A stretch of 25,309 nt of DNA, from positions 1 through 25,309 of the IMG/VR virus record IMGVR_UViG_3300049893_000653; one strand, given 5' to 3'. The position numbers and the translations under genes are program-made. Shown one piece after another: positions 1,076 through 24,686 of the stretch. The DNA comes from a virus. The notes under the pieces were generated by a model. That model was not told the origin of the DNA and made no database searches. It saw nothing but the letters and a program-made list of their open reading frames with translations. Each line of letters opens with the position of its first letter. Within the stretch, counting starts at the first letter, position 1.

Positions 1076-1084
1076 TAGGATTCC
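1076..1084 (-). promoter_or_regulatory. Promoter-like element GGAATCCTA
   Basis: Matches the window-wide consensus GG(C/A/T)ANNCTA. It lies just after the stop codon of the holin-like gene and 17 nt before the proposed GTC start of the fibre-like gene. Confidence 0.45.
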
Positions 1085-1086
1085 GG

Positions 1087-1263
1087 CTACGGCTTCTGGC
1101 TGAGAGGTGTCATCAGGGCCAGAAGAATGGCCACGTAGGTCTCGGCGGCCTTCTGGAACGCCTGCGACGCATCGGGTTTGCCAGACTCAGCGACACCAAG
1201 GAAGGCAAGATGTGTTACCATCAGTCCCCCGAGGAGTCCCAAGACAAATGTCGGACGATCGAT
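1087..1263 (-). CDS. Small holin-like membrane protein (start codon uncertain, ATC)
   Basis: About 58 residues with two hydrophobic stretches. One is near residues 4-25 (PTFVLGLLGGLMVTHLAFLG) and a shorter one is near 41-53 (YVAILLALMTPL). They are separated by a polar segment, a topology seen in class II holins. It lies two genes before the endolysin. The frame has no ATG, GTG or TTG close to the end of the preceding gene. The codon after a good AAGG ribosome site (8 nt) is ATC, where ATG would be expected. In-frame ATGs exist about 60-80 nt upstream inside the preceding gene, or internally at Met-Val-Thr-His, which would lose most of the first membrane segment. Holin is inferred from size, hydrophobicity and context, not from family recognition. 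Confidence 0.5.
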   Translation of the reverse strand: MDRPTFVLGLLGGLMVTHLAFLGVAESGKPDASQAFQKAAETYVAILLALMTPLSQKP

Positions 1264-1273
1264 CCGGAACGCC

Positions 1274-1594
1274 TTACCGCTTCTTCCGCGGCTTGTAGCC
1301 GGGCTTGGCTTTCTTGGTGCCCTTGCCGTTGGCAAGCCGTCCGTTGTCTCCATGTCCATTGCGAGCCCTGTTGGTTTTCGGGTTTTCGATCTTGAAGCCA
1401 CCGCCGGCCTGATGACTGACGTCACCACCTCCCTTGCCCATGATGCCGCGAGCCCGACGCTCGCGTGCCAGTTCGGCCCGATACTTCTTGCGGTCGGGTT
1501 TTGCGTTGCGTTTCTTGTCGTAGGCAAGCTTCTTTTTGTACGCTTCGGGATTCGACTTGTAGAAGTCGGCGGTCGAGCGCTTCTTGGCTGCCAT
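1274..1594 (-). CDS. Highly basic KKR-rich phage protein of unknown function
   Basis: A 106-residue, strongly basic protein beginning MAAKKRSTADFYKSNPEAYK and ending in a Lys/Arg tail (KPGYKPRKKR). It has a KKLAYDKKRNAKPDRKKYRAEL segment split here as KKLAYDKKRNAK and PDRKKYRAEL, then ELARERRARGIMGKGGGDVSH and a NRARNGHGDNGR region. I recognise this layout (FYKxNPEA, DKK, RKKYRAEL, DxSH, RARN) from small conserved proteins of many cyanophages and other aquatic phages. Their function is not known to me; the charge suggests nucleic-acid binding. The start is fixed by AAGGA just before the ATG and by the promoter-like GGAAGCCTT 20 nt upstream. A longer in-frame extension to 1750 would run through that promoter and is rejected. 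Confidence 0.85.
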   Translation of the reverse strand: MAAKKRSTADFYKSNPEAYKKKLAYDKKRNAKPDRKKYRAELARERRARGIMGKGGGDVSHQAGGGFKIENPKTNRARNGHGDNGRLANGKGTKKAKPGYKPRKKR

Positions 1595-1614
1595 AGTCCT
1601 TGGGCTTTTCACAT

Positions 1615-1623
1615 AAGGCTTCC
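1615..1623 (-). promoter_or_regulatory. Promoter-like element GGAAGCCTT
   Basis: Ends 20 nt before the start of the basic KKR protein gene. It differs from the consensus only in the last base and is divergent from the plus-strand copy at 1666-1674. Confidence 0.4.
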
Positions 1624-1665
1624 TATCAAACGTCCGATTTCCCCAGTGGTTTCGGTTTCGTTTTT

Positions 1666-1674
1666 TGCATACTA
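1666..1674 (+). promoter_or_regulatory. Plus-strand promoter-like element TGCATACTA
   Basis: Same element in the opposite orientation, with T for the first G, downstream of a T-run. It ends exactly 20 nt before a GTG codon with a strong GAGGAGG ribosome site. This puts the plus-strand gene under the same control as the minus-strand genes. Confidence 0.45.
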
Positions 1675-1694
1675 TGTCAGAGGAGGCAGTACTT

Positions 1695-2333
1695 GTGCCC
1701 GAAGAGCGCGAAAACAGTAACCCGTCGGAATGGTCTTGGAAGGAGATCATCGCTCAGGAAGTATCCGACTTCCTATTTGATGCGCCAAAGTCAATCGCTG
1801 ACGTGAGCCGACGGGTCGCCGTCCTGTTTGTGGCGGTCTTCCTGGGACTCTCCGGATACCTGGTCGTACGTGCGGCTCCAGCCATCCAGGACAAGGTCTT
1901 CCAGCAAACCGAGGATGCCCTAAAGCAGGAGCTCGCCGAGCCTGAGCATGCTGGCACTAAGGCCGAGATTGAGAAGTGGCTCAGCCGGTGGTATGGCACC
2001 TACCAACCGCAGATGCTCGCCCTGCTCTCCTGGCGGGAGATCCCTCAGCTCGAGGGTCTCTGGGTGCAACCCGAGTCGTATCAACGCCAGTGGCTGGGCC
2101 CCCGCCCGCTATTCCCGGAACTGCGGCAGACGGGAGGTGCCTTTAGCTTCAATGAGTGCGGTCAGACTGCAATGCACGCAACGGACTCGGTGATCATCGT
2201 GTGCCCCATTCAGTCGGATGTGACCACCTGGGGGCTGCTTGTTGCAATCATGCCAGCGGATAAAGTCGGAGCAACCGATGCCGGCGAATCACTGAGGCAA
2301 CTTGCTGCCACCATTGCGCAGAGAATATACTGA
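1695..2333 (+). CDS. Single-pass membrane protein, function unknown
   Basis: 212 residues: a polar N-terminus of about 40 residues, one membrane helix (about 41-58, VAVLFVAVFLGLSGYLVV), then about 150 residues predicted to be outside the inner membrane. That part begins with a helical charged stretch, followed by a mixed domain with two Cys (NECGQT and IVCPIQ) and a hydrophobic strand (TWGLLVAIMP). I do not recognise the family; the C-terminal part loosely recalls a PAS/GAF-like sensor fold. The start is GTG at 1695: GAGGAGG lies 8 nt upstream and the promoter-like element ends 20 nt upstream. The in-frame ATG at 1674 would overlap that element. The gene is opposite to its neighbours and its 3' end overlaps the convergent minus-strand gene by 45 nt. 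An anti-superinfection or lysis role is possible but not shown. Confidence 0.75.
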   Translation: MPEERENSNPSEWSWKEIIAQEVSDFLFDAPKSIADVSRRVAVLFVAVFLGLSGYLVVRAAPAIQDKVFQQTEDALKQELAEPEHAGTKAEIEKWLSRWYGTYQPQMLALLSWREIPQLEGLWVQPESYQRQWLGPRPLFPELRQTGGAFSFNECGQTAMHATDSVIIVCPIQSDVTTWGLLVAIMPADKVGATDAGESLRQLAATIAQRIY

Positions 2334-2567
2334 GCCGGCTTCGATCTGAGAAGCTCCAGCTCCTTGGGTCATGAATCTCTCCGTAAGACCAAACCCTACG
2401 CCAACAAGAAAGGGAAGGGCTAGGATGGTGATAACCGCAATAGTACTGGCAACTCGACAGCCATGGCATTCGGAGTCAATCACCTCGCCCCCTCCTTCCA
2501 TTTGCTTGCCCTTTAGCTTTCCGCCGCAGGAGTGATTGCGACAGAGTGATTCCTTAAGACATACCAT
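2289..2567 (-). CDS. Small Cys-rich membrane protein
   Basis: 92 residues. The N-terminal half has CLKESLCRNHSCGG and, 25 residues later, a SECHGC pair, resembling a zinc-ribbon or Cys cluster. A single membrane helix follows (about 47-68, VASTIAVITILALPFLVGVG), then a polar tail. The ATG at 2567 is preferred over the in-frame TTG at 2582 because GAGGG lies 8 nt before it. The TTG overlaps the stop codon of the previous gene, so the two are probably translationally coupled. The 3' end overlaps the convergent plus-strand membrane protein gene. Family not recognised. Confidence 0.65.
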   Translation of the reverse strand: MVCLKESLCRNHSCGGKLKGKQMEGGGEVIDSECHGCRVASTIAVITILALPFLVGVGFGLTERFMTQGAGASQIEAGSVYSLRNGGSKLPQ

Positions 2568-2578
2568 GGCTATATCCC

Positions 2579-2764
2579 TCAATACTCCGTCCCGTTCCGG
2601 TTGAACTGTCCAGGTTCGTAGCCAACACCAATTAAGCCCGTGACCGGGTCGCTGATGTCAAGTTCAACCGAACGGACGACCTGAGCCGCCTCGACATCAG
2701 CATCAAGATTCACGCCATCGACAAACCGAGGACCGGTGCTGTAGGTCACATCCAGATCAGTCAT
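2579..2764 (-). CDS. Small acidic protein, unknown function
   Basis: 61 residues, mostly polar and acidic (MTDLDVTYSTGPRFVDG to FNRNGTEY), with alternating residues suggesting a small beta protein. The start overlaps the end of the previous gene by 8 nt (ATGACTGA), and the next start follows closely, so it reads as the middle gene of a coupled three-gene set. It is likely a minor virion or accessory protein because it sits among structural genes. No family recognised. Confidence 0.6.
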   Translation of the reverse strand: MTDLDVTYSTGPRFVDGVNLDADVEAAQVVRSVELDISDPVTGLIGVGYEPGQFNRNGTEY

Positions 2765-3110
2765 TGCCCAGCTCCTTGCAGGCGGCCAGAATGTCGCGCT
2801 TGGGCAGGGTGTTCTTCAGGTCCACTCCGTGCTCCATCGCGTACTCCAGGAGCTCAGCCTTGGTCATGGCCTCGAGCAGTTCGTCGCCTTCCAGGGGCAG
2901 CACATCTGCGTCGTCATCGAAGGCATCGACACCGACCTCTGCCACGATTTCAGGCAGGGGCTTATGGATGTTGGCAGCGATGATCTCGTTGTCGCCGTCC
3001 TCCTCCACGAAACCCTGCTCCAGCAGTTCGCGGGCCTGGATCGTGTAGTAGGCAGCGCGGCGCTCCTCTCCACGCACGAAATACGTCGGAAGCTTCTCGA
3101 GGTGTGCCAT
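2757..3110 (-). CDS. Acidic protein with a C-terminal SAP/HeH-like helical domain
   Basis: 117 residues. The N-terminal part (LEKLPTYFVRGEERRAAYYT) reads as a short beta-helix segment. The middle is very acidic (DAFDDDADVLPLEGDE). The last 35 residues, MTKAELLEYAMEHGVDLKN followed by PKRDILAACKEL, resemble the helix-extended-loop-helix/SAP-like pattern at the ends of phage head-completion and nucleic-acid-binding proteins. It starts 15 nt after the preceding gene, with no clear ribosome site and no copy of the promoter-like element. It overlaps the next gene by 8 nt. Its position just after the capsid block fits a head-associated role, but this is inference. Confidence 0.7.
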   Translation of the reverse strand: MAHLEKLPTYFVRGEERRAAYYTIQARELLEQGFVEEDGDNEIIAANIHKPLPEIVAEVGVDAFDDDADVLPLEGDELLEAMTKAELLEYAMEHGVDLKNTLPKRDILAACKELGND

Positions 3111-3125
3111 GTCGTATGAGTCTAG

Positions 3126-3374
3126 CTATCTATTGTTCCGATCGAGGTATCTGTCCTCAAGTCGCTCGAGCCTGCGTTCGTTGACAAGACTGCGTTGCAG
3201 AGCCTCGACAGATTCAGGGGCGGGAACGATCTTGTTGTCCGGCGTGACCAGGATCTTGGCGTCTTCCTCCAACCTGTCGAGTCTCGCGTCCAACTTGCTG
3301 GCAACATCGATCCCGTACAGCACCAGGCTGACCAGTCCGGTCAGAAGGGCCGCGTTGATTGCGCTACGATCCAC
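3126..3374 (-). CDS. Small membrane protein with a coiled-coil tail
   Basis: 82 residues. Residues about 8-24 (AALLTGLVSLVLYGIDV) form one membrane helix. The rest is charged and helical (LDARLDRLEEDAK and LERLEDRYLDRNNR), probably a coiled coil. The start is GTG at 3374, 21 nt after the promoter-like GGCAATCTA, with GGCGGAA as a weak ribosome site. Small N-terminally anchored proteins like this are sometimes lysis or virion accessory proteins; no family is recognised. It is the first gene after the terminator that closes the decoration-protein cassette. Confidence 0.65.
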   Translation of the reverse strand: MDRSAINAALLTGLVSLVLYGIDVASKLDARLDRLEEDAKILVTPDNKIVPAPESVEALQRSLVNERRLERLEDRYLDRNNR

Positions 3375-3395: not shown

Positions 3396-3404
3396 TAGAT
3401 TGCC
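3396..3404 (-). promoter_or_regulatory. Promoter-like element GGCAATCTA
   Basis: Lies just after the terminator at 3408-3432 and ends 21 nt before the GTG start of the small membrane protein. Confidence 0.5.
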
Positions 3405-3449: not shown

Positions 3450-3815
3450 TTACTTGGCCGCGTAGTCAACCAGCTGCAGGAAGATGCCGCCGCCAGCAGC
3501 CACAGTGCCAGTGCCGCCAACAGCATAGCCAGCAGTGTTGGTCACGTCGCACAGGGCGCCGCGGATGTGAGCGATGTACACGCCGTTGGGATCAGCATCC
3601 TGAGCCTGGAACACCACAGCCTGACCGCCGACGGTAACGGTGATCTTGTTGGTGCCAGCGTTGTCGATGCCGGTGATGCCCAGGCCGATCACGCGAATGG
3701 TCTTAGCATACTTCAGGGTCACACCAGAAATGGCGGCCTGAGAGGTGGTGAGCTTGAGCTGTTCGTCGAGGTCGAAACCTTCGCGGGGGAACAGGCCAGA
3801 GGAACGAGCTGCCAT
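3450..3815 (-). CDS. Capsid decoration-like/small structural protein, copy 1
   Basis: 121 residues, largely beta-strand by pattern. It is a clear paralogue of the next upstream gene (3900-4268). Shared positions are ARSxxxFPRExFxL, LKYxxTIxVxxxGIT, DxDxNGVxIxHxRG and a GG(I/V)(F/Y)LxxL ending. It sits directly downstream of the major capsid protein gene, as capsid decoration or head-fibre proteins often do; this role is inferred. It has its own promoter-like element, a 69-nt leader with a strong hairpin, a good ribosome site (CAGGAG) and an intrinsic terminator. These signs point to very high expression, so this is probably the major of the two copies. Confidence 0.8.
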   Translation of the reverse strand: MAARSSGLFPREGFDLDEQLKLTTSQAAISGVTLKYAKTIRVIGLGITGIDNAGTNKITVTVGGQAVVFQAQDADPNGVYIAHIRGALCDVTNTAGYAVGGTGTVAAGGGIFLQLVDYAAK

Positions 3816-3884: not shown

Positions 3885-3893
3885 TAGTATGCC
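3885..3893 (-). promoter_or_regulatory. Promoter-like element GGCATACTA
   Basis: Exact match to the commonest form of the element. It lies just beyond the stop codon of decoration-like gene 2 and 69 nt before the start of decoration-like gene 1. Confidence 0.55.
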
Positions 3894-3899: not shown

Positions 3900-4268
3900 T
3901 CAGAGGGTCTCGAGGTAGACTCCACCGTTCGGGTTGATGCCGGCGGATCCGGTATTCGGGACAAGTTCGTAGCCCACGTCCTGGGATCGATTGCGCAGCC
4001 GAGTACCCCTCATGTGACCGATAAAGACACCGTTCCTGTCCACGTCGCCAGCCGTGAAGCGCATGACGAGAGAGCCCGCCGAGTCAAAGATCACGCGCAA
4101 CTCGGCGTTGCCGGTCAGCGTTATCCCGACGGCCACCACCTTGATTGTGTTGACATACTTCAGGTTCCCGATGACGTCGGGTGTTCCACCGCCGAAACCT
4201 TGCACCTCGAGGGCCGCGCCCAACTCGAAGTTCTCTCTCGGGAAGATGTTGGTAGAGCGCGCTGTCAT
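3900..4268 (-). CDS. Capsid decoration-like/small structural protein, copy 2
   Basis: 122 residues, paralogous to the downstream 121-residue protein (same FPRE, LKY-TI, NGVFIGHMRG and C-terminal GGVYLETL landmarks). The sequence has diverged and carries an RGTRLRNRSQ insertion. Tandem duplication followed by divergence is the simplest reading. Unlike its twin it has a short 20-nt leader without a hairpin and no terminator, so it is probably made at a lower level. It may occupy special capsid positions or assist assembly. The ATG is 20 nt after GGAAGACTA, with a weak GAGGAT ribosome site. Confidence 0.8.
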   Translation of the reverse strand: MTARSTNIFPRENFELGAALEVQGFGGGTPDVIGNLKYVNTIKVVAVGITLTGNAELRVIFDSAGSLVMRFTAGDVDRNGVFIGHMRGTRLRNRSQDVGYELVPNTGSAGINPNGGVYLETL

Positions 4269-4288: not shown

Positions 4289-4297
4289 TAGTCTTCC
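4289..4297 (-). promoter_or_regulatory. Promoter-like element GGAAGACTA
   Basis: Lies between the capsid-gene terminator and decoration-like gene 2, ending 20 nt before its ATG. Confidence 0.5.
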
Positions 4298-4356: not shown

Positions 4357-5253
4357 TCAGGTGGTTGCATCCTGGGTGGCATCGAAGCCGGCCAGACGAG
4401 CGGCAGCGCGGCCGTTGATCAGGGCCATGCCCACGTACCACTCAACACGGGTCACCAGCTGGGGCTTGTCCAGGGCTTCGCCGAGTTCGCGGACGTTCAC
4501 GCCACCGTTCTGGATGCCAGTCAGGTGATCGTTGCCGAAGGAGACGCAGTACAGGTCCTGGGCGGAAGGAGTGCCGTCCATGATGGCCACGTTCTTGTGG
4601 TCACGGTCCATCTCCAGCACGGGGATGCCAGCATACATCATCTGCTGGTAGCCAAACTCATTGCGAACGATATCGATCTGAGTATTGGTACGAGCGCGAC
4701 GGCTGAGAGCCCGACGGGCGGACTTCGACATCACGAGGTACTTGGAACCGCCCTGGGCGTCGACCATGTCGATGATTTCATCGAGCTTGCCGAGAGCCAG
4801 GCCGCCGGCACCGTTGGACAGGTACTGGCTGGAACCGCTCTTGATACGAGCAGCCAGGCCATCAAACTCAGAGGGAGCCTTGTTGGAGTCGCCGTTGATG
4901 AACAGGGCTTCGAAAGCGAGACGCATTGCGCGCACACGAGCCTGCACCTGGTAAGCCTTGGCCTCAGGGCCCTCCAGCTCAACGATCGCCTTGTCAACCT
5001 TGATGTCGCCACCAAAGAGCTTCAGGCTCTCGGACTGCTGGCTCACTTCGCCGTAGCTCTCAGCCAGGGCGCCGTTGTAGTTACGGAAGCCAACGTCGGG
5101 CAGAGCTTCTTCACGCTTCCAGAACAGACCGTTGCCCTCGATGTTACGGAAAGGCATGGTTTGGAGCAGAGGGCCAGCAGCCAGCTCGGCCACCACAGCC
5201 AGTTCGGCGGGGGTCTTGGCGTGCTTCTGGGCCTCGAGAAGAGTCAGGGCCAT
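4357..5253 (-). CDS. Major capsid protein (HK97-fold type)
   Basis: 298 residues, the usual length for a capsid protein without a fused delta domain. An N-terminal helix (ALTLLEAQKHAKTP) leads into a hydrophobic segment ending LLQTMPFRNIEGNGLFWKRE. Next come GEVSQQSESLKLFGGDIKVD and a long E-loop/spine-like helix with AFEALFINGDSN, typical of P22/HK97-type coat proteins of this size class. The A-domain region has YAGIPVLEMDRD and ends in RVEWYVGMALINGRAAARLA. The gene is preceded by the scaffold gene and followed by small decoration-like genes. It has TAGGAG 9 nt before the ATG, a long leader (about 120 nt) and a terminator: an isolated, strongly expressed unit. Lattice cross-linking cannot be judged. 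Confidence 0.9.
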   Translation of the reverse strand: MALTLLEAQKHAKTPAELAVVAELAAGPLLQTMPFRNIEGNGLFWKREEALPDVGFRNYNGALAESYGEVSQQSESLKLFGGDIKVDKAIVELEGPEAKAYQVQARVRAMRLAFEALFINGDSNKAPSEFDGLAARIKSGSSQYLSNGAGGLALGKLDEIIDMVDAQGGSKYLVMSKSARRALSRRARTNTQIDIVRNEFGYQQMMYAGIPVLEMDRDHKNVAIMDGTPSAQDLYCVSFGNDHLTGIQNGGVNVRELGEALDKPQLVTRVEWYVGMALINGRAAARLAGFDATQDATT

Positions 5254-5376
5254 TTGAAAGATCTCCTAGATGTTGGATGAACGAGGATTGGTGAATCGGT
5301 CCACGTCTCGTGGTAACCGCAGACACCCTTCCAAGTTCAGCCATCACGGCCTTACTCGAATCGGGTGCTCTACAAA
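5254..5376 (-). promoter_or_regulatory. Long 5' leader of capsid gene with hairpin
   Basis: This 123-nt untranslated stretch lies between the promoter-like element and the capsid ATG. It contains CCACG and CGTGG paired around a 3-base loop (5301-5313) and a strong TAGGAG ribosome site next to the ATG. No convincing leader gene is seen. Confidence 0.5.
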
Positions 5377-5385
5377 GAGGATACC
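5377..5385 (-). promoter_or_regulatory. Promoter-like element GGTATCCTC
   Basis: Variant of the consensus with C in the last position. It lies directly downstream of the scaffold terminator and drives the long capsid leader. Confidence 0.45.
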
Positions 5386-5449: not shown

Positions 5450-6163
5450 TCAGGAGAAAGCCCGCAGGAACTTCTCGGTATTCGACAGCGACCCGAAGTC
5501 CTCCGTCGGCATGCCGTTGGCGTCAGTGCCACCATAACCGATGCCGGCACCAGCACCCTTGGCGCCCTTGAAGAAGGTGCCGTAGACAGGGTGGACCTTG
5601 TAGGAACCGATGAAGTCTTCGGCACTGATGCGACGACCGGACTCCTTGTCCAGTACCGGATCACCCTGCGCGTCGATCACGGTGAGAGAGCCATCAGCCT
5701 CCTGACGGAAACGGTTGCCAACCTGGGCGGCCATCATGTCGAAGAAGCTGACCCCATCAGCTGCATCCGTCCGGCCACCAGCGGCAAGGAACACCTTCTC
5801 GAGGGCGTACTTCTTCTGGTAGTCGGCGAGCATGGCCTTGGCAGCGGCGGCCTCCTTGGCAGCGGCTTCTGCCTGCTGGCTGTACTTCAGCTCGATGGCC
5901 TCGCGTGCTTCACCGAACTGAGCCTGCAGCTGAGCAGCCTTGGCAGCCTCCTCCTGGAGCTTGTTGTACTCATCAGGGTTGATCGAGGCGAAACGCTCGA
6001 GCTGAGCCGCGCGTTCCTTGGCTTCACGCTCGTACTGCTTGCGGGTCTCGCGTTCCGCCTTGAGAGCCTTCATCAGGTTCTCGGTCTCAGAACGGGGAAT
6101 CATCTCTTCACCACCACCGGCGGCAGGGGCTTCCGTCACGGGAGCTTGGTTCTCTTCAGACAT
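5450..6163 (-). CDS. Capsid scaffolding protein
   Basis: 237 residues with the profile of phage scaffolds. The N-terminus is acidic and disordered (SEENQAPVTEAPAAGGGEE). A long charged alanine-rich coiled coil follows at about 25-125 (LMKALKAERETRKQYEREAK, then EAAAKEAAAAKAMLADYQKK), then a C-terminal region ending LSNTEKFLRAFS. It lies immediately upstream of the capsid gene and should template procapsid assembly and then leave the shell. The leader is 34 nt. It contains a GGGCG/CGCCC hairpin close to the ATG and no Shine-Dalgarno sequence, so translation may be structure-dependent or mediated by other contacts. An intrinsic terminator follows. No protease motif is visible. Confidence 0.88.
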   Translation of the reverse strand: MSEENQAPVTEAPAAGGGEEMIPRSETENLMKALKAERETRKQYEREAKERAAQLERFASINPDEYNKLQEEAAKAAQLQAQFGEAREAIELKYSQQAEAAAKEAAAAKAMLADYQKKYALEKVFLAAGGRTDAADGVSFFDMMAAQVGNRFRQEADGSLTVIDAQGDPVLDKESGRRISAEDFIGSYKVHPVYGTFFKGAKGAGAGIGYGGTDANGMPTEDFGSLSNTEKFLRAFS

Positions 6164-6197: not shown

Positions 6198-6206
6198 TAG
6201 TATGCC
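6198..6206 (-). promoter_or_regulatory. Promoter-like element GGCATACTA
   Basis: Exact match, starting 2 nt after the stop codon of the Cys-rich gene and ending 34 nt before the scaffold ATG. Confidence 0.55.
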
Positions 6207-7184: not shown

Positions 7185-7193
7185 TAGTATGCC
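7185..7193 (-). promoter_or_regulatory. Promoter-like element GGCATACTA
   Basis: Exact match, a few bases after the stop codon of the large adhesin gene and 21 nt before the ATG of the zinc-type gene. Confidence 0.55.
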
Positions 7194-8968: not shown

Positions 8969-10420
8969 TTACACGATAAAGTAAACGGTGTTTGCGTCCT
9001 TGCTTCCAAGGGCGTCATAGTTTGCCTGAGTGATCTTCACGACGTTTTGTACAGCAACACTGTTTGTACCGGCCTGTGTTGTGTCAGACTTGAGTCGCGT
9101 GGCAGGTACCCAGTTGGTACCATTCCAGGCTAGCACCTGACCGGAAGTCGGAGCAGAGGTCGCTGTGTCAACATCCGTCAGGTCGTTAATGCCAGCAACC
9201 GAAGAACCGTTACCTGGAACCCAGTTCGTCCCGTTCCATTTCAAGAACTGGTTAGTGGTCGGGGCGGTGGTTGCCGTGTCGACATCGTCCAGGTTATTGA
9301 TGCCATACGCTCCGGACACGGTACCAGGGGCCGCTGGATCAAGGGTGATGGTCCACTTGGCAGCCAGGTAGGAAAGCAGTGCCGCCCGGTTTGCTGCACT
9401 GATCAACGAGGGGAATACAATGACCTCGCTAATGGCACCACTCCACCCCCTGTTTAGAGTGAAGTTGTCCCGGTCGCAGCCCATAGTGAAGCCGCTGGTA
9501 TTTGCTAGGGCACCCGAGGGCCTGACAGCGCGTACGATACAGGGGCTGCCAATCTCAGTGAAGACATTGGATACCCTGTTCGTGCTCGGATGACCGAGGA
9601 GGTAGACTTCGGAGAACTCCGACGTGTAGAACCCGGTTGTGTTTCCAAGGGCCGTCAACCAGGGGCTGGCTCCACCCCCTCTGGGGCCAAAGATGGTGTC
9701 GTAGTTGGTAAAGTTGCTGGCGTTACCGGTGTACTTGCAGACGACATAGATCTCCTGGACGTTGACACTGGTCGCTGACGAGTTGGTCAGGTTCTTGTTG
9801 TTGTCGGTCGATGGCCACACAACACCATGAGTGGAGCCCAGGCCCGTGGCGCTGTAGGTGGGCTCGTTGCCACCAGCATTGGGAGTCAGGTGCCAACTGG
9901 AACTGGCCTTGTTCCTCCACTCGGTGACGATGTTTGCCGCGCCAAGCGTCATCGTCGAGGCGTCGCTCGAGTCCCACCAGCCAACAGGGCTCATCCCCGT
10001 CGGAGGCAGACCGGTGACCGGGTAGCGGAACCCACCGATGGCGGGACCGGCAACCCACTTACCGTTCTGGTAGATCAGAGCACGTCCGTCAGAAGGAGAC
10101 TGTATCGCGGCTGCGTCTACGTCGCCAATGTTGTCGAGATTACTGATTGCCGTGTCACCCGGCTTCCACTGGGAAGTACCACTATCCCAGACAAGCGCCT
10201 GGCCACCGGTTGGGGGCGTCGAACTTGTGTTGACGTCAGCCAGTTGGTCGATCGAGTTAGCACCAGTCGAAGTAAGAACTCCACCCTCTACCACATAGAG
10301 CATGTTCTCGTCTTTTGCGTAGACGACTTCACCCTCTTTGAAGCTAGACAGGTTCGCTGTCAGTACCGACTTGACTGCACGCGCAACCCTGACGGGAACA
10401 CGATTGGCGGGTACTGGCAT
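8969..10420 (-). CDS. Tail fibre protein with repeated NLxDVDTA...NGTNWVPG modules
   Basis: 483 residues. Four copies of a roughly 30-residue phage fibre repeat are visible: about 57-87, 93-127, 374-403 and 411-440, for example INDLTDVDTATSAPTSGQVL followed by AWNGTNWVPA. They flank a central beta-rich domain (about 145-370; WWDSSDASTMTLGAANIVTE, LNRGWSGAISEVIVFPS, LLSYLAAKW) that resembles LamG-like modules of adhesins. The C-terminus, ITQANYDALGSKDANTVYFI, is the common fibre-end motif. N-terminal repeats probably form the shaft attached to the virion, with the central domain binding the host surface. The start is ATG, 19 nt after GGCATCCTA. Confidence 0.87.
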   Translation of the reverse strand: MPVPANRVPVRVARAVKSVLTANLSSFKEGEVVYAKDENMLYVVEGGVLTSTGANSIDQLADVNTSSTPPTGGQALVWDSGTSQWKPGDTAISNLDNIGDVDAAAIQSPSDGRALIYQNGKWVAGPAIGGFRYPVTGLPPTGMSPVGWWDSSDASTMTLGAANIVTEWRNKASSSWHLTPNAGGNEPTYSATGLGSTHGVVWPSTDNNKNLTNSSATSVNVQEIYVVCKYTGNASNFTNYDTIFGPRGGGASPWLTALGNTTGFYTSEFSEVYLLGHPSTNRVSNVFTEIGSPCIVRAVRPSGALANTSGFTMGCDRDNFTLNRGWSGAISEVIVFPSLISAANRAALLSYLAAKWTITLDPAAPGTVSGAYGINNLDDVDTATTAPTTNQFLKWNGTNWVPGNGSSVAGINDLTDVDTATSAPTSGQVLAWNGTNWVPATRLKSDTTQAGTNSVAVQNVVKITQANYDALGSKDANTVYFIV

Positions 10421-10439: not shown

Positions 10440-10448
10440 TAGGATGCC
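10440..10448 (-). promoter_or_regulatory. Promoter-like element GGCATCCTA
   Basis: Its first G is the last base of the upstream gene's TAG stop. It ends 19 nt before the tail-fibre ATG. Confidence 0.55.
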
Positions 10449-10804
10449 TACGTCAGTTCTCCCCCGTCGTACCCACCATCATAGTCAGTGGGAATGTCAA
10501 TGTCACCAGTATCAAAGTCGCCGCCACCAAGAAGGGCATGCACATAGAATCCGTCGGCCTCGCCCGTATCAAAGTCACCACCATCTCCCCTCCCGCTTCC
10601 ACCACCACCTCCCCCGCCTCCTGAAATCTCCACAACATCATTAAGGGAGTCCAGGGTATAGATCGACGCCCCACCGCTAAACCTGCGAACGCAGAGTTCT
10701 CCAGGATACAGTCCCGCAGGCTGACCGGCGGCGAGAGCGGCTCTTGCAGCAGCGTCTTCGTCCGTGGTGTTCTTGAGGACTGTATGATCAGGGAAGACCG
10801 CCAC
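10448..10804 (-). CDS. Small Gly/Asp-rich structural protein
   Basis: 118 residues. Residues 1-60 contain AGQPAGLYPGELCVRRFSGG and IYTLDSLNDVVEIS, like the virion-binding collar segments at the start of fibre proteins. Then comes a Gly run (GGGGGGGG) and an acidic tail with two GGDFDTG repeats and DYDGGYDGGELT. It looks like a fibre base with a flexible acidic arm instead of a receptor domain. The start is GTG at 10804, 19 nt after GGCACCCTA; the frame is closed by TAG upstream, so it cannot be longer. An alternative frame over the same stretch (10453-10839) lacks these features and would begin inside the upstream gene. Confidence 0.75.
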   Translation of the reverse strand: MAVFPDHTVLKNTTDEDAAARAALAAGQPAGLYPGELCVRRFSGGASIYTLDSLNDVVEISGGGGGGGGSGRGDGGDFDTGEADGFYVHALLGGGDFDTGDIDIPTDYDGGYDGGELT

Positions 10805-10823: not shown

Positions 10824-10832
10824 TAGGGTGCC
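10824..10832 (-). promoter_or_regulatory. Promoter-like element GGCACCCTA
   Basis: Its first G is the last base of the TAG stop of the Cys-rich gene. It ends 19 nt before the GTG start of the Gly/Asp-rich gene. Confidence 0.5.
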
Positions 10833-13803: not shown

Positions 13804-13812
13804 TAGGATTCC
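13804..13812 (-). promoter_or_regulatory. Promoter-like element GGAATCCTA
   Basis: Follows the TGA stop of the tail-hub gene and ends 19 nt before the next ATG. Confidence 0.55.
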
Positions 13813-16056: not shown

Positions 16057-16458
16057 TCAAACCTCCGTCAGGCCAAAGCTTACGAGTTTGTCGGCCGGGC
16101 CGAACTTGCTGTAGGTCGGCGCCGTGGTGAAGACAGCACTGGTCGTCACGGTAGGGCCGAAGGTGGCATCAGCCACGCCCACTGCAGCGGAAAGTCCCGC
16201 ACCGCGGTCCGTGTCCCACGCCTGATACATCGCGTCGAACTCTGCCGCCTGAGCGTTCGACATTGGACTGCTGATGGCCCAGATCCGCTTCTGCTTGTAG
16301 GCGGGGCCCGTCATGGTCACGGTGCCGTTCACCGCGAACTCAAGGGAGGCAGAAGACGCGTAGCTCCGGGGCAGTTCGTCGCCGATGAACTTCGAGAACA
16401 CGAAGTTGTAAACCGGGCTGCCACCAGATGGTGTGTAAGAAACGCCAATCTGAGACAT
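16057..16458 (-). CDS. Distal-tail-like small tail protein
   Basis: 133 residues, beta-rich: YNFVFSKFIGDELPRSYASS, EFAVNGTVTMTGPAYKQKRI, WAISSPMSNAQAAEFDAMYQAWD. The AWAIS/AAEFDAMYQAWDTDRG pattern is common in small siphophage tail proteins next to the tape measure (Dit-like or minor tail proteins). Here it lies between the tape-measure block and the hub. The ATG is 19 nt after GGCAAACTA. Family assignment is by position and pattern and remains tentative. Confidence 0.7.
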   Translation of the reverse strand: MSQIGVSYTPSGGSPVYNFVFSKFIGDELPRSYASSASLEFAVNGTVTMTGPAYKQKRIWAISSPMSNAQAAEFDAMYQAWDTDRGAGLSAAVGVADATFGPTVTTSAVFTTAPTYSKFGPADKLVSFGLTEV

Positions 16459-16477: not shown

Positions 16478-16486
16478 TAGTTTGCC
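16478..16486 (-). promoter_or_regulatory. Promoter-like element GGCAAACTA
   Basis: Its first G is the final base of the upstream TAG stop. It ends 19 nt before the ATG of the distal-tail-like gene. Confidence 0.5.
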
Positions 16487-16833
16487 TAACCCAGCACCCC
16501 AGCTAGCTTTTTGTACTTGTCGATGTTCTCACGTGTCCAGGGACCGACTGGCTGATGTCGGCCACTTCGCACCACTTCCCGAAACCTCTCAGAGGCTTCC
16601 GCAAGGGCCTGGAACAGCTCGTCGTACTGGTCCAGGAGTACTTGCTCCACCTCAGTGATTACACCGTCGCTCCAGGCGCTTGTGAGCGCCATGCGTGCAT
16701 AGACAACCGCCCTCTCCAACTCCTGGACAGTCATCTCGTCGATCGGCTTAGCCTCGAACTTCTCACCGAAAGACGACAGCGCCGCATCCCAGTAGGTAGC
16801 AGCGATGTCGTCGTGTGAACCAAACAGGAACAT
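16486..16833 (-). CDS. Small helical tail-region protein, unknown
   Basis: 115 residues, almost wholly helical (TYWDAALSSFGEKF, VQELERAVVYARMALTSAWS, VLLDQYDELFQALAEASERF). It ends in GPWTRENIDKYKKLAGVLG. It lies directly after the tape-measure gene, where siphophages often encode minor tail proteins. The ATG is 18 nt after GGTACTCTT with GGGAG as ribosome site. No family recognised. Confidence 0.72.
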   Translation of the reverse strand: MFLFGSHDDIAATYWDAALSSFGEKFEAKPIDEMTVQELERAVVYARMALTSAWSDGVITEVEQVLLDQYDELFQALAEASERFREVVRSGRHQPVGPWTRENIDKYKKLAGVLG

Positions 16834-16849: not shown

Positions 16850-19735
16850 TCAAGAGTACCGATGACGCTTCAGCTTGGTGAGCTCAACCAGGATGTCGCT
16901 CGCGGCCTGGGTGGTGTTCGCAGCCTGGATGCTGACGTTGTTCGTGATGTTGTCACGAGAGCCGCCCACAAGCCCGCGCAGGAGCCCTGCGATCGATCCG
17001 CCCGCATCGACACGGGAAGCGACCATAGAGGCCCTGGAGGAGCTGCTAGCCCCCTCTGTGGCCTTCATCGCAGCGAACACGCCAGCGGGGATGATGGTAC
17101 CGGTGGAGGGTGCGCGCCACTGGCCCCACGCGGGAGCCTTGATCTCCGAGAGTTGTCCGGAGGCCGACAGGAAGCCCTCCCGGCCGAACTCGTTCACCGT
17201 GTACTTCTGGCCACCGGCAACAGAGCCACCAGCAAAGCGGTTGGGAGCAGGGGCACCACCGCGAGCGGCGTTGAGGGACTGTTGGGCCCTGGCAGCACGC
17301 TCGATCTGGGATGCCATCTCGGCGACGGCGGCAGTCGCGTTGTTGTAGGCCACCTTGGTGGCGTTGACCTGTTGAAGCTGGTTGTTGACAAGCTTGGGGA
17401 TGTCGCTCAGCTTCTTGATCTGGGTATCGTTCAGCTTGAGGGTGGCATCGATCTCCTCGTTGATCTTGGCCTGGGCGGACTTGTTATTGCCAAGTTCGGT
17501 AGTGAGAGCCTTGATAGCCTCCTCCAGCTTGTTTTGACGAGCGATCGATTGCTCCTCGAGCGCCTTCTTCTCTTCCTGGAACTTCCTTTCGGCAGCAGCC
17601 TTCTCTGCTGCGAGTGCCTTCAGCTCCTGTTCCTGCTTTGCTCGAACGGCAGTTGACTTTTCCTGCTGGAGCATGGTGTCCAGCTGAGCCTGTGCAGCGA
17701 TCTTCTCCTCATAGGAAGCGCTGGTACTGGCAACAGTAGCGGCCAGTTTCTCCTTGCGTAGACGGACCTGCTCAAGTTGAGCGGGAGTTTGAGCGTTGAT
17801 TGCGTCCAGTTCAGCGGCATACCGCTCTTTGACACGGGCCGTCTCGTCCTCGATGAGTTGCTTGCGGGTCTCGTACGCCGACTTAACGGTTTCCAGTTGA
17901 GAAGAAAGAGAGTCCTTCTCTTGTTGCAGAGCGTCCTTCTTGATCTGGACCTGCTCTTCGATCTTGGCATTCTCCGAGTCATACCTGTCGGCGATTTCGT
18001 CCTTCAGCGCCTTGAGTTGTTCGGATTGGACCTTGAAGGCTTCTTCGGCAGCGGTTCGCTGCGTCTCGAGTTCGGGGCGAAGTTGCTCCAGCTTGGTCTT
18101 ATACTCATCTACTCCAATTGCGCCAGCTTTGTATGCAGCAGTCAACTGCTCCATGGTGCTCTTCGCAGTGGACAGTTTGCCAGTGCTAGCTTGCACACCG
18201 GCCCCCAGCGCCAGGATGGCATCCGTTCCCTGCCGGAAACTATTGATCAAGAAGGTGCCGGCCCCCGTAAAGCTCTCAAGAACAGCCTTGGCTCCAGGTA
18301 CGGACTGGATGAAGTTCATGATAGCCTTCTGGAGGCCAAGGATCGCATCAACAACGACTAGGATAACCTTGATTCCATTCAAGAAGCCAACGACAAGGAC
18401 TTCAAGGACGACCCCGACAAGATCGAACAACTTCTTGAATCCATCCTGGATATTCGGCAACCCGCTAGTGATGGACGCAAAGAATTGGGAAACGGCAGCC
18501 CCGATCCGCTGCATTGCCATCCCAAAACCAGCAAAGGTCTTGTTCAGGCTCTCAAGGCTGATTGTATTCAGTGTATTTTTGACGTTGTCGATCTGCTGGA
18601 TATTCAACTTGTCAATGCGCTGTTGAACCTCACCGATGGCGCCAGCAAGCTGATCTCGAGCGCTTTGAGAAACAGCGACAAATGCTTCGCGGAAGAGGGC
18701 TGCGGTAACTTCGCCCTTCTTCATTGCATCATTGAGGTCAGTGATATTGTGCGTATTCGCGAGGTAGGAAGCAATTTGGCTGCGCAGAGCACCGTCAAGC
18801 TCGGAGAACTGCTGGTTAAGTTCTTCCGACTGCAGCTTGCCCTTGCCCATGACCTGGGCAAAAGCTTCGATGTATCGACCAGACTGTTCGGTGTTCAGGC
18901 CAAGCTGAGTGGTCCTGGCGGCCAGGCTCTCAATGATCTTTTCCGTTTCACCGAGCGTACCACCAGAGGCCAGGATGGCCGGAGTGATCCGCTTGTAGGA
19001 CTGTTCAATCTGGGTTAGCGATGCGCCGTACTGGAGCGAGATACCCTTTGCCGACGATAGAACACCGGCAACTTCAGAGGCCGACGCGCCAAAACCTTTC
19101 AAGGCCAGGGAGAGTCCTTGGATTTGCTTCTCACGCTGGACAAGTTGATCCGCGGCGCCGGCGATAGCCTGGAACGAGATGACAACAGCCTGAGCAACCT
19201 GCACGGCCTGGGAGATCGCGTTGCCAATGCTAAGTGCTTGACCAATCTGAGGGAACTTTGCCTTGCTGATTTGCAGGAAGTTGCCGTTAGCCTCAGCAAG
19301 TTTAACATTCAACGACTGAACGAGGTCGTTCTGCTCGCGCCAAAGAGGATTGATGCCGTTAAGAGTCCTCCCATACTTGTCTGTGATTGGCACAATCCGC
19401 TGTAAGCCATCTCGAAGCTGAGTGGCCGTGTTCAGTTGCTGGCGAAGACTTGTGACAGAGCCCTCCTGCGTCTTGTTGAACTTCTTCTGGGCATTATTGA
19501 GCTTCTCGTACTCGTTATAGACCTCCTTGACCACGGGCTGCAGGCGCTTGACACCATTTGCGTCTACGCGAACTTCCCAGTCAAGGATTGTCTTGACATT
19601 ACCGCCCAACCGTTCGTTGATAACCTTGGCCGCCTGAAGTGAGCCGTTCTGGGCCCTCTGCCACAGATCATCGAGCTCCGTCAGTGCCTGAGTGCTGTTG
19701 ATCTCAACGTTGTAACGCAAGCTCTTTTCAGCCAC
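16850..19735 (-). CDS. Tail tape-measure protein
   Basis: About 961 residues; sets tail length and is ejected with the DNA. The region around 190-400 has the tape-measure core, with LALKGFGASASEVAGVLSSA, SGRYIEAFAQVMGKGKLQSE and QQFSELDGALRSQIASYLAN. A hydrophobic stretch follows near 430-480 (VGVVLEVLVVGFLNGIKVIL), which may insert in the host membrane. A long charged coiled coil covers about 560-800 (QVQIKKDALQQEKDSLSSQL, then AEKAAAERKFQEEKKALEEQ). The end is Gly/Asn/Ser-rich. Two in-frame GTGs exist. I prefer 19735 because it lies 20 nt after GGAATCCTA with GGTGG in front; the one at 19744 would leave almost no leader. Residue length would imply a tail in the 130-150 nm range if the usual rise per helical residue applies. 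Confidence 0.9.
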   Translation of the reverse strand: MAEKSLRYNVEINSTQALTELDDLWQRAQNGSLQAAKVINERLGGNVKTILDWEVRVDANGVKRLQPVVKEVYNEYEKLNNAQKKFNKTQEGSVTSLRQQLNTATQLRDGLQRIVPITDKYGRTLNGINPLWREQNDLVQSLNVKLAEANGNFLQISKAKFPQIGQALSIGNAISQAVQVAQAVVISFQAIAGAADQLVQREKQIQGLSLALKGFGASASEVAGVLSSAKGISLQYGASLTQIEQSYKRITPAILASGGTLGETEKIIESLAARTTQLGLNTEQSGRYIEAFAQVMGKGKLQSEELNQQFSELDGALRSQIASYLANTHNITDLNDAMKKGEVTAALFREAFVAVSQSARDQLAGAIGEVQQRIDKLNIQQIDNVKNTLNTISLESLNKTFAGFGMAMQRIGAAVSQFFASITSGLPNIQDGFKKLFDLVGVVLEVLVVGFLNGIKVILVVVDAILGLQKAIMNFIQSVPGAKAVLESFTGAGTFLINSFRQGTDAILALGAGVQASTGKLSTAKSTMEQLTAAYKAGAIGVDEYKTKLEQLRPELETQRTAAEEAFKVQSEQLKALKDEIADRYDSENAKIEEQVQIKKDALQQEKDSLSSQLETVKSAYETRKQLIEDETARVKERYAAELDAINAQTPAQLEQVRLRKEKLAATVASTSASYEEKIAAQAQLDTMLQQEKSTAVRAKQEQELKALAAEKAAAERKFQEEKKALEEQSIARQNKLEEAIKALTTELGNNKSAQAKINEEIDATLKLNDTQIKKLSDIPKLVNNQLQQVNATKVAYNNATAAVAEMASQIERAARAQQSLNAARGGAPAPNRFAGGSVAGGQKYTVNEFGREGFLSASGQLSEIKAPAWGQWRAPSTGTIIPAGVFAAMKATEGASSSSRASMVASRVDAGGSIAGLLRGLVGGSRDNITNNVSIQAANTTQAASDILVELTKLKRHRYS
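16852..16860 (-). promoter_or_regulatory. Promoter-like element GGTACTCTT inside the tape-measure 3' end
   Basis: Overlaps the last codons and stop of the tape-measure gene (His-Arg-Tyr-Ser-stop). It ends 18 nt before the next ATG. Confidence 0.4.
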
Positions 19736-19755: not shown

Positions 19756-19764
19756 TAGGATTCC
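19756..19764 (-). promoter_or_regulatory. Promoter-like element GGAATCCTA
   Basis: Directly after the terminator of the major tail gene and 20 nt before GTG 19735 of the tape-measure gene. Confidence 0.5.
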
Positions 19765-20723: not shown

Positions 20724-21158
20724 TCAGGCTAGAATCGGACTGTCGGAAGGGATTGTCACTAGAGTCTGCGCCATGGCACCGAGCCCCTGTGGAACTGCTA
20801 CCGTCTCATTCGCGGTGGACCCCCCGAAGATCGCCATCAGGCGCATTGCGGCCGTTGTCATGCTGAGCCCGTCGGATCCGGGCCAACAGATCAGATAAAC
20901 ATTCCACCTTGGGATGATGTCGGATGCACCGGACACATAGTCCCTGCGACGGATGATGGCGGTGTCGTGGATGACACACTCGATTCCAGATACGTTCCTG
21001 GTCGCTGGAAGATCTGCACCAGGGGTGACTATCGACACAGCCGTAACCGGCAAGGTGCCAGCCCTGAAGGTATAAGTACCTAGCAGGGCTGACATCACGC
21101 CATCTGCTGAAACCTTGTCGTAGATGGCCTGTGGAGTCACAGGGAAAGATTGCGACAC
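20724..21158 (-). CDS. Tail terminator/completion-like protein
   Basis: 144 residues: QAIYDKVSADGVMSALLGTY, then VSGIECVIHDTAIIRRRDYV and DIIPRWNVYLICWPGSDGLS. The pattern of an N-terminal helix, beta-strand core and TAAMRLMAIF helix, directly upstream of the major tail gene, fits tail-terminator or neck-completion proteins. The start is GTG, 22 nt after GGAACCCTA, with GTGAGGCGG as ribosome site. The family is inferred mainly from position. Confidence 0.68.
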   Translation of the reverse strand: MSQSFPVTPQAIYDKVSADGVMSALLGTYTFRAGTLPVTAVSIVTPGADLPATRNVSGIECVIHDTAIIRRRDYVSGASDIIPRWNVYLICWPGSDGLSMTTAAMRLMAIFGGSTANETVAVPQGLGAMAQTLVTIPSDSPILA

Positions 21159-21180: not shown

Positions 21181-21189
21181 TAGGGTTCC
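21181..21189 (-). promoter_or_regulatory. Promoter-like element GGAACCCTA
   Basis: Ends 22 nt before the GTG of the tail-terminator-like gene. A weak plus-strand look-alike, GGTAAACTG at 21194-21202, faces the HNH gene. Confidence 0.5.
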
Positions 21190-22904: not shown

Positions 22905-22913
22905 TAGTCTACC
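22905..22913 (-). promoter_or_regulatory. Promoter-like element GGTAGACTA
   Basis: Overlaps the TAG stop of the upstream neck-protein gene and ends 20 nt before the chaperone ATG at 22884. Confidence 0.5.
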
Positions 22914-23448
22914 TAAATGCCCTGGTAACGGCCTCGTCGTATATGGCATCGAGATTGACGACCGGGACTGGTCCGCCACCCTCCATGACGGCATCCACCC
23001 ACGGCCTTCCAGGGATGTACACGGCGTCTATCTTGGGGTTTCCGTAGGGCTTGATATAGCCACCGTAATGGACTAAGGCGGCGTAGGGCGCAGTGTAATA
23101 GAACGAGAACCCGTCTCCATCGCGCTCGAATTGAAGCGAGTCCCTCAACGTACCGCTGTCTACGATGTCGCGACTGCCATCCCTCCAACCCCACGCGCTT
23201 GACGACACAGCGAGATCCAATGCCTCCCTGACGGCATCCTGCGCCTTGGAATTGGCATAGTCGATGGCTTCCTCGAGGGCCGCTTTGGCTGCAGCAGCCT
23301 CGGCCTTGCTAGCAAAGGCAATCTTGACCCTGCCTAAAAGACCCGTTCCGGTCCAGGTAACACTCTGATCCTCGACAGCCTTCTCTGCGGAAGACAGCCT
23401 CTCGAGGAGCTGCCCCTGGACCTGGGCCATTGCAGACTGCAGTTTCAT
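22909..23448 (-). CDS. HK97 gp10-like neck/tail completion protein
   Basis: 179 residues. The N-terminal half is a helical charged region (MAQVQGQLLERLSSAEKAVE, AEAAAAKAALEEAIDYANSK). The C-terminal half has VDSGTLRDSLQFE, YTAPYAALVHYGGYIKPYGN, then YIPGRPWVDAVMEGGG. The DTGxLRxSL, YAxxVHYGG and PGRPWxDA set is the recognisable signature of HK97 gp10-family head-tail joining proteins. The start shares one base with the stop of the preceding gene (TGATG), so the two are translated together. Assignment is good. Confidence 0.85.
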   Translation of the reverse strand: MKLQSAMAQVQGQLLERLSSAEKAVEDQSVTWTGTGLLGRVKIAFASKAEAAAAKAALEEAIDYANSKAQDAVREALDLAVSSSAWGWRDGSRDIVDSGTLRDSLQFERDGDGFSFYYTAPYAALVHYGGYIKPYGNPKIDAVYIPGRPWVDAVMEGGGPVPVVNLDAIYDEAVTRAFR

Positions 23449-23954
23449 CAGTTCTGCACTTCCCCTGCCGTCAGCTGGATCTGAACGCCGCCAATCTTCT
23501 GGTAGACGATCTCATCGATCCCCTGGCCACCGAAAACACCGCTGGACCTCTCGATGGTTGAGTTTAGCATTTGCGGATCAGCGCCAAAGCGCATCTGCAC
23601 GGTTGTTCCAGGCAACATCCATTCGAACTGGGTCGTCACAGGCGTCCAAGTGAGCCCAGTTTCCACTGTGTCAAGGGTCCAGCTAGAGGCCACCGAAGCG
23701 TACTCCAGGGCATATCCACGGTAAAAGAACTGGTCTCCAGAGGCTCCTGGAAGCATCCTGCCGTCCAACTGGCTCTCAAGCGGCAGTTTCTTGGACCCAG
23801 ATGATACACCAGAGTACTGTTGACGCTTCAGGAAGCACTTGACAAGCACTTTCCCAATGCTCGTGGCCTGAATACGGCCATTCACAATGGCAATATCGTC
23901 CTCGACCCGAATCAAAAGACGAGAATTGGCGTAAGGGAGAAGTGGAGAAGCCAT
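23448..23954 (-). CDS. Probable head-tail connector or minor virion protein
   Basis: 168 residues, beta-rich: SRLLIRVEDDIAIVNGRIQA, SIGKVLVKCFLKRQQYSGVS, FFYRGYALEYASVASSWTLD, VYQKIGGVQIQLTAGEVQN. It directly precedes and overlaps the gp10-like gene, the usual place of head-closure or connector proteins. The VKCFLKRQQYSG and FFYRGYALEY segments look like those of small neck proteins of cyanosiphophages, but I cannot assign a family securely. The start lies 22 nt after GGCAACCTA with GCAGGAA as ribosome site. Confidence 0.72.
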   Translation of the reverse strand: MASPLLPYANSRLLIRVEDDIAIVNGRIQATSIGKVLVKCFLKRQQYSGVSSGSKKLPLESQLDGRMLPGASGDQFFYRGYALEYASVASSWTLDTVETGLTWTPVTTQFEWMLPGTTVQMRFGADPQMLNSTIERSSGVFGGQGIDEIVYQKIGGVQIQLTAGEVQN

Positions 23955-23976
23955 AGCGCCGGTTCCTGCGTCAGAT

Positions 23977-23985
23977 TAGGTTGCC
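23977..23985 (-). promoter_or_regulatory. Promoter-like element GGCAACCTA
   Basis: In the short gap after the small zinc-type gene; ends 22 nt before the ATG of the neck-type gene. Confidence 0.5.
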
Positions 23986-24021
23986 AGCGCCACAGCTTCC
24001 GACTCCGTCGGCTGCTAATTC

Positions 24022-24034
24022 GGCCCTTCGGGCC
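24022..24034 (-). terminator. Possible weak terminator (hairpin without a full T-run)
   Basis: GGCCC and GGGCC pair around GAA immediately after the stop codon of the small zinc-type gene. Only GAATT follows, so termination would be inefficient, or the hairpin protects the 3' end. Confidence 0.35.
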
Positions 24035-24217
24035 TCATTTCAGCTTCAAACCGCGGCATTTCGCGCAAGAATGGATCTCTCCTTGCAGATATTTTGCAAA
24101 GTTGGCATTCATCTTACGAAAAGCACCACACCCATGACACCAAACGTCAACCAGTTCCATCTTTTCGAACTCGGCCAGGGCATCCCCAAGGGGACCGTCA
24201 ACTTCAGGGTGTTGCAC
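24035..24217 (-). CDS. Small zinc-finger-like protein
   Basis: 60 residues. ELVDVWCHGCGAFRKMNANF followed by AKYLQGEIHSCAKCRGLKLK has two CxxC pairs separated by 22 residues, a zinc-ribbon pattern with a basic C-terminus. It may bind nucleic acid or a partner protein. The GTG start lies 21 nt after GGCATCCTT, which supports this gene despite its size. No family recognised. Confidence 0.65.
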   Translation of the reverse strand: MQHPEVDGPLGDALAEFEKMELVDVWCHGCGAFRKMNANFAKYLQGEIHSCAKCRGLKLK

Positions 24218-24238
24218 AGTGCTATAGCAGCGTCCTAG

Positions 24239-24247
24239 AAGGATGCC
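24239..24247 (-). promoter_or_regulatory. Promoter-like element GGCATCCTT
   Basis: Located just after the upstream gene and ending 21 nt before the GTG start of the small zinc-type gene. The last base deviates (T). Confidence 0.4.
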
Positions 24248-24253
24248 AACGCA

Positions 24254-24652
24254 TCAAGAATGCACCAGTTGGGTGATTCCACCCCAGAAAGCGATCTCGG
24301 GCGTACATGGACAGAACGCAAAGTAGTTCATCAGCTTCTTCCGGGCACTGCTAAGCTCACTTTGAGCACCCGTTGGCCCATTCCCGTTCCTTTCCCACTT
24401 CAGCACATCCGCCTGTACCAGCGTTTTCCCTTCCAGATTCGCCAGGTTCTGCGCACTGACGGCAGCACTCGCCGTATCATAGTCCGTCAATACACCCTTG
24501 ACCTGTAGAACCGCCTCCGGAGAAATACCCTCCATCTGGTTCATACACGTCTGCAAACAATCCAGCGAATACTCACTGAACTGCATCTGAAGAGCCTCCA
24601 GGAGACGGAAGTCATCCCCGGCATCCCAGTTCCCAGAGACATCAAGCGCCAT
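24254..24652 (-). CDS. Hypothetical neck-region protein
   Basis: 132 residues, largely helical: DDFRLLEALQMQFSEYSLDC, LQTCMNQMEGISPEAVLQVK, then SAAVSAQNLANLEGKTLVQA and DVLKWERNG. Helical bundle proteins with this LEGKTLVQADVLKWE-type ending occur near connector genes of cyanophages, so a head-tail connector or adaptor role is possible but unproven. It is the most upstream minus-strand gene in the window. The start lies 25 nt after GGAAGCCTA, in a short divergent region shared with the plus-strand gene. Confidence 0.7.
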   Translation of the reverse strand: MALDVSGNWDAGDDFRLLEALQMQFSEYSLDCLQTCMNQMEGISPEAVLQVKGVLTDYDTASAAVSAQNLANLEGKTLVQADVLKWERNGNGPTGAQSELSSARKKLMNYFAFCPCTPEIAFWGGITQLVHS

Positions 24653-24656
24653 GACT

Positions 24657-24665
24657 GGTACTCTA
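24657..24665 (+). promoter_or_regulatory. Plus-strand promoter-like element GGTACTCTA
   Basis: Faces the small plus-strand gene at 24702, 36 nt before its ATG. It lies 12 bp from a minus-strand copy, making a compact divergent pair. Confidence 0.4.
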
Positions 24666-24677
24666 AACGATCGCTCC

Positions 24678-24686
24678 TAGGCTTCC
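24678..24686 (-). promoter_or_regulatory. Promoter-like element GGAAGCCTA
   Basis: Ends 25 nt before the ATG at 24652. It is divergent from the plus-strand copy at 24657-24665. Confidence 0.45.

Follow-up and report, generated by a model that had tools for sequence, protein, structure and literature searches.

The viral record IMGVR_UViG_3300049893_000653, a 25,309-bp fragment hereafter called the window, carries the structural-gene block of a cyanosiphovirus, and a 9-bp element, GGHANNCTA, recurs in front of its genes. We consider it very probable that this element is the -10 box of a class of late promoters in marine cyanosiphoviruses of the S-CBS2/P-SS2 type, most likely read by a phage-encoded SigF-like sigma factor. 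In the mechanism that we propose, host core RNA polymerase would be directed to the element by this group 3 sigma, which keeps regions 2 and 3 and has lost region 4, so that no -35 box would be used. Transcription would probably start 5-6 nt after the element, giving most genes leaders of about 14-16 nt. The sigma would be expressed from its own class of element in a terS-terL-sigma unit, and, in most members, a QxxLF tail might engage the host beta clamp.

An element in front of late genes

The window encodes major capsid, scaffold, tape-measure, tail and neck proteins. Its tail protein shares 60% identity with that of S-CBS2, 54% with S-CRES3 and 47% with S-CRES1/2, all Synechococcus phages, and is distant (28%) from that of the Prochlorococcus phage P-SS2. 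Four named relatives (S-CBS2, S-CRES1, S-CRES3 and P-SS2) were compared, 80 IMG/VR loci with a capsid gene related to that of the window were retrieved, and the pooled site profile contained 351 non-redundant element sites.

The element is a real, non-random signal in the window. It occurs there in 20 exact copies, 18 on the minus (coding) strand and 2 on the plus strand, versus a mean of 4.9 and a maximum of 12 in 100 dinucleotide shuffles (Poisson p ~2.5e-7). An earlier note on this DNA had counted 23 copies, 21 of them on the minus strand; its two plus-strand copies are confirmed, but its total must include variants. Four near-misses are present (16852-16860, 3131-3139, 13075-13083 and 5377-5385). 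That note also placed 18 copies 17-25 nt before a start codon, a number that we could not reproduce: once the starts were refined, 13 exact sites had a plausible start codon 19-25 nt beyond their end, most often at 19 nt.

The same element was recovered when the pattern was not supplied. Expectation-maximisation (EM) on the 60 nt 5' of each gene returned it as the best motif in five genomes (GGCAtcCTA in the window, GGtAtcCTA in S-CRES1, GGAAGgCTaA in P-SS2, and the same element in S-CBS2 and S-CRES3), with likelihood ratios of 68-106, versus 34-47 in shuffled sequence. A site ending 14-30 nt upstream was found for 10/28 genes in the window, 20/102 in S-CBS2, 22/122 in S-CRES3, 19/111 in S-CRES1 and 13/111 in P-SS2. 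Permuted patterns at the same distance averaged only 0.1-0.4 genes per genome, versus 10-22 for the true motif; equal frequency of the element within genes elsewhere, which the earlier note had named as grounds for abandoning the promoter idea, was thus not what we found.

Sites were also retained across non-redundant orthologues. For nine site-bearing window genes, the site was kept in 24/24, 21/22, 17/19, 9/9, 3/3, 3/3, 3/3, 23/34 and 6/40 orthologues, and in 110/158 of the pooled orthologues of site-bearing genes. In contrast, eight window genes without a nearby site had none in 138 orthologues. In four orthologue sets the six fixed letters were invariant and the upstream flanks were close to chance (0.25-0.43 identity); because sites were picked by pattern, the invariance of the letters is conditional, whereas the contrast between presence and absence is unaffected.

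Site positions within the genomes support the view that the element marks late genes. In S-CBS2, 18/46 genes of the structural block had a site versus 2/56 other genes (Fisher p=6.5e-6). The corresponding numbers were 20/52 versus 2/70 in S-CRES3 (p=3.4e-7) and 16/43 versus 3/68 in S-CRES1 (p=1.2e-5).

Architecture of the probable promoter

The profile of the 351 sites held almost no information upstream of the element, apart from a weak run of T and, right next to the element, a preference for T or A. TAGGC, TTGAC and GTATA boxes were not enriched upstream of these sites, and the only enriched upstream 5-mers were terminator-stem-like ones at -35 distance; a two-part promoter was rejected on this basis. 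On the 3' side, purines peaked at the fifth base whichever distance class was considered, and in most classes also at the sixth; comparison of the classes showed that the peak is anchored on the element, not on the start codon. Placing A4 and T8 at -11 and -7 puts the expected start at the usual spacing.

A hairpin followed by a T-run preceded 64/351 sites, versus 15 in shuffles. In the window, the element or a variant lies close behind each of the terminator-like hairpins 19790-19773, 4336-4319, 3428-3415 and 5414-5399. An element directly behind a terminator implies that the downstream gene needs a new promoter. The lack of a -35 signal, the purine peak 5-6 nt downstream and the terminator adjacency together support the interpretation, already offered in the earlier note, of a -10-type promoter without a -35 box. 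Its corollary of single-gene transcripts has to be relaxed, since some sites lead short operons. A promoter for a T7-like single-subunit polymerase was rejected, the conserved core being only 9 bp and the element resembling a -10 box, though no search was aimed at a gene for such a polymerase.

The sites of the window are as follows.

24678-24686, minus strand: GGAAGCCTA, 25 nt before the ATG of gene 24254-24652; kept in 3/3 orthologues
24657-24665, plus strand: GGTACTCTA, forming a divergent pair with 24678-24686
23977-23985, minus strand: GGCAACCTA, 22 nt before the ATG of gene 23448-23954; 3/3 orthologues
22905-22913, minus strand: GGTAGACTA, with the likely ATG (22884) following after 20 nt; similar site at S-CBS2 9223
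21181-21189, minus strand: GGAACCCTA, 22 nt before the GTG of gene 20724-21158; 3/3 orthologues
19756-19764, minus strand: GGAATCCTA, next to the T-tail of terminator 19790-19773; the likely GTG of the tape-measure gene (19735) follows after 20 nt
16852-16860, minus strand: weak variant GGTACTCTT with one mismatch, 18 nt before gene 16486-16833
16478-16486, minus strand: GGCAAACTA, 19 nt before the ATG of gene 16057-16458; 9/9 orthologues
13804-13812, minus strand: GGAATCCTA, 19 nt before the ATG of gene 13059-13784; 17/19 orthologues
12225-12233, minus strand: GGCATACTA, 19 nt before the GTG of gene 10832-12205
10824-10832, minus strand: GGCACCCTA, 19 nt before the GTG of gene 10448-10804; 21/22 orthologues
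10440-10448, minus strand: GGCATCCTA, 19 nt before the ATG of gene 8969-10420; 24/24 orthologues, flank identity near random
7185-7193, minus strand: GGCATACTA, 21 nt before the ATG at 7163
6198-6206, minus strand: GGCATACTA, 34 nt before the ATG of scaffold gene 5450-6163
5377-5385, minus strand: variant GGTATCCTC, just 3' of terminator 5414-5399 and 132 nt before major capsid gene 4357-5253
4289-4297, minus strand: GGAAGACTA, shortly behind terminator 4336-4319 and 20 nt before the ATG of gene 3900-4268; the site is kept in only 6/40 related genes
3885-3893, minus strand: GGCATACTA, 69 nt before the ATG of gene 3450-3815; similarly long spacing at S-CRES3 57241
3396-3404, minus strand: GGCAATCTA, 21 nt before the GTG of gene 3126-3374 and immediately behind terminator-like hairpin 3428-3415
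3131-3139, minus strand: weak variant GGAACAATA with one mismatch, 20 nt before gene 2757-3110

The layout at the tape-measure gene (terminator, element, start) was matched at S-CRES3 39641. For the scaffold gene, the 23 orthologues with a site (of 34) had it at 10-40 nt, mostly at 33-40. The variant ahead of the major capsid gene would leave a leader of about 120 nt (5254-5385, minus strand), and in many relatives a GGTATTCTA-type site precedes the capsid gene at a comparable distance (about -129 to -143), a conserved position that suggests a functional leader. The divergent pair at 24657-24665 and 24678-24686 is closely spaced and lies near the first structural genes; similar pairs exist in S-CBS2 (7374 minus, 7387 plus) and S-CRES3 (34962 minus, 34942 plus).

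Two copies are poor promoter candidates. That at 9018-9026 (minus strand) is within gene 8969-10420 and encodes part of the conserved peptide ANYDALG, so that it is probably a coding coincidence, and that at 13882-13890 is antisense inside a gene. The copies at 2514 and 1076 are doubtful candidates.

The SigF-like sigma as candidate reader

The earlier note had proposed a phage sigma factor and suggested looking for its gene. Such a gene, encoding a SigF-like (group 3) sigma, was found directly after terL in each of the four named relatives. It is present in 43 IMG/VR loci, and one contig (L009 and L093) carries both this sigma and a capsid gene 85% identical to that of the window. Among the relatives' proteins (the window contig contributes none), Pfam detected region 2 in all 27 sigmas examined and region 4 in none of them. 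The closest solved-sequence matches were FliA (6pmi) and the sigma factor of entry 1l0o, which we take to be SigF. The type III sigma ORF003 of P-SS2 is a direct homologue (50% identity over ~150 residues). An AlphaFold model predicts helices resembling those of regions 2 and 3, a linker of low confidence, and a C-terminal domain that stands apart. Confidence in the full-length model was moderate (pTM 0.40), and its best fold matches were all sigma factors, with a large rmsd due to flexible domain placement. The C-terminal domain had no significant match in the PDB, and neither region 4 nor another known fold was seen in it.

The element and the sigma co-occur. In the cyanosiphoviruses S-CBS1, S-CBS3 and S-CBS4, tblastn detected no SigF-like gene, and the element was found at 0/192 genes. 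In many cases GGTAGACTG stands about 30 nt ahead of the sigma gene itself, and a further site precedes terS, ~2.2 kb upstream; as the terS-terL-sigma unit carries the same element, the sigma probably amplifies its own expression. The phage SigF-like sigma is the most likely reader of the element, which it would bind.

Two particularities of the sigma genes were noted. The deposited S-CBS2 protein (gp077, L002:17832-18564) is 206 aa long versus 244 aa in relatives, and the +1 frame continues the homology, owing either to a true frameshift or to an error in sequencing. A scan of genome contigs yielded a single one from a metagenome-assembled genome (MAG), L136, 82 kb long and assigned to 'Proteobacteria bacterium UBA4457'; its SigF-like gene has 65% identity, and the contig is probably of phage origin and was binned with a bacterium.

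Could a group 3 sigma of the host, SigF, read the element instead, the phage borrowing a host regulon? Synechocystis SigF uses GGTAA at -12 (PMC2758279), which is compatible with GGHAN, and the P-SS2 paper credits the host MIT9313 with a sigma of group 3 (PMC2784084). However, the TAGGC box at -32 was present at 2/351 sites, which is background; Chesapeake Synechococcus siphoviruses without a phage SigF-like gene have no site at all; and group 3 sigmas are described as rare in Prochlorococcus in that same paper (PMC2784084). We consider this explanation very unlikely.

It is very unlikely that the reader is the second, RpoD-like sigma, which all four named phages also encode (e.g. L003:5004-5801, L002:8804-9589). 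The motif is absent from S-CBS1 and S-CBS3 even though both have an RpoD4-type sigma, and the GG-A-CT(A) layout resembles SigF-type, unlike sigma-70, -10 boxes.

The element might also act in the leader, as a translation or RNA-processing signal. The tight distance to start codons (mode 19 nt) would fit this idea, as would the low share of Shine-Dalgarno-like leaders in element-led genes, 49/351 (14%) versus 99/251 (39%) for other genes (L001-L004, L130-L131, 351 pooled sites), a share seen despite leaders of only ~15 nt. In contrast, three observations are at odds with a leader signal, which we regard as highly improbable: the location directly behind terminators, a purine peak whose position follows the motif, and the distances of 34-132 nt that separate the capsid, scaffold and 3885 sites from their start codons. 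Chance or coding coincidence may explain a few copies (9018, 13882, 2514) and is refuted for the whole set, where its probability is negligible, by the shuffles, EM discovery, permuted patterns, orthologue retention and random flanks.

Several observations weigh against a late-promoter class read by the phage SigF-like sigma. In P-SS2 the late bias was not significant (Fisher test), and an exact site at 14-30 nt is found in only ~40% of late genes. The control phages S-CBS1, S-CBS3 and S-CBS4 differ from the others in many genes beyond the sigma, so that the comparison is correlational. The deposited S-CBS2 sigma gene is frameshifted. Finally, the window contig is a fragment that ends before the sigma region, so that its own sigma gene is not visible and is assumed from the relatives.

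The QxxLF tail and other late transcription systems

Among complete, intact-frame IMG/VR sigmas, 37/39 end in QxxLF (QGSLF, QPSLF, QGVLF etc.), although many of these sequences are related, so that they do not represent 37 independent events. The S-CRES1 and S-CRES3 sigmas end likewise, as does the product of the frameshifted S-CBS2 gene when read in its alternative frame. The Q, L and F of the tail are conserved and the residues separating them differ, and no other protein of the annotated S-CRES1 and S-CRES3 proteomes has this ending. Published consensus sequences for bacterial clamp binding are QLxLF (PMC4549789) and QL(S/D)LF (PMC9690074). From this short motif, the tail is predicted to bind the beta sliding clamp of the host, and late transcription may then be coupled to replication as in T4. 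A search of the four phages revealed no beta clamp (DnaN, PF00712; T4-type clamp families were outside the search), family A polymerase (PolA) or PolIII alpha. As no phage clamp was found, the partner would be that of the host.

Two points speak against clamp coupling. The P-SS2, L123 and L125 sigmas lack the QxxLF ending, so that coupling cannot be general, and no partner like gp33, the coactivator that T4 needs, was identified, no search having been aimed at gp33 homologues. We give about even chances to a late system separate from the T4 lineage, with a region-4-less SigF-like sigma that would read -10-only promoters and be activated by the host beta clamp through QxxLF.

T4 late transcription relies on gp55, gp33 and the gp45 clamp, which activates late promoters (PMC2988020, PMC7892883). 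As in T4, late genes have -10-only promoters without -35 conservation (the T4 TATA-box), and, like gp55, the sigma has region 2, no sigma-4 and, as a motif only in the present case, a clamp-binding sequence at its extreme C-terminus (PMC2988020, PMC7892883). Unlike in T4, the sigma is of a SigF-like lineage with region 3, the element differs, the tail is of the bacterial QxxLF type and not LDFL, and, with no phage clamp found, any coupling would use that of the host. Homology to gp55 by descent was not found, the nearest relatives of the phage sigma being SigF/FliA-type sigmas.

The late/middle promoters of phiEco32 gp36 (tAATGTAtA, with starts 6-8 bp downstream) are likewise single-element promoters served by a sigma without region 4 (PMC8948821). 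The sigma family, sequence and host are different, and the part of that source covered here mentions no clamp-binding tail. Cyanobacterial SigF, of the same broad sigma group, recognizes TAGGC-GGTAA promoters, with a GG-containing -10 box, and is autoregulated (PMC2758279), as the phage sigma would be; the host protein, in contrast, has region 4 and a -32 box that the phage sites lack. The -10 box of the B. subtilis csfB SigF promoter, GGGGAGGCTA, also resembles the element (PMC4383634). The P-SS2 sigma was noted in 2009 (ORF003, type III). In the part of that report considered here, promoters were predicted only as sigma-70 by BPROM and the target element was left open (PMC2784084); GGHANNCTA is a candidate for it.

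Region-4-less sigmas with single-element promoters are thus known already, from phiEco32 gp36 and T4 gp55. What is new, as far as the literature covered shows, is the lineage of the sigma, together with the element and the probable link to the host clamp, although the description of the S-CBS2 genome, outside that literature, may hold a precedent. If the proposed coupling is true, host-type replication forks would switch on virion genes in these cyanosiphoviruses, and replication-coupled late transcription would have arisen by convergent evolution.

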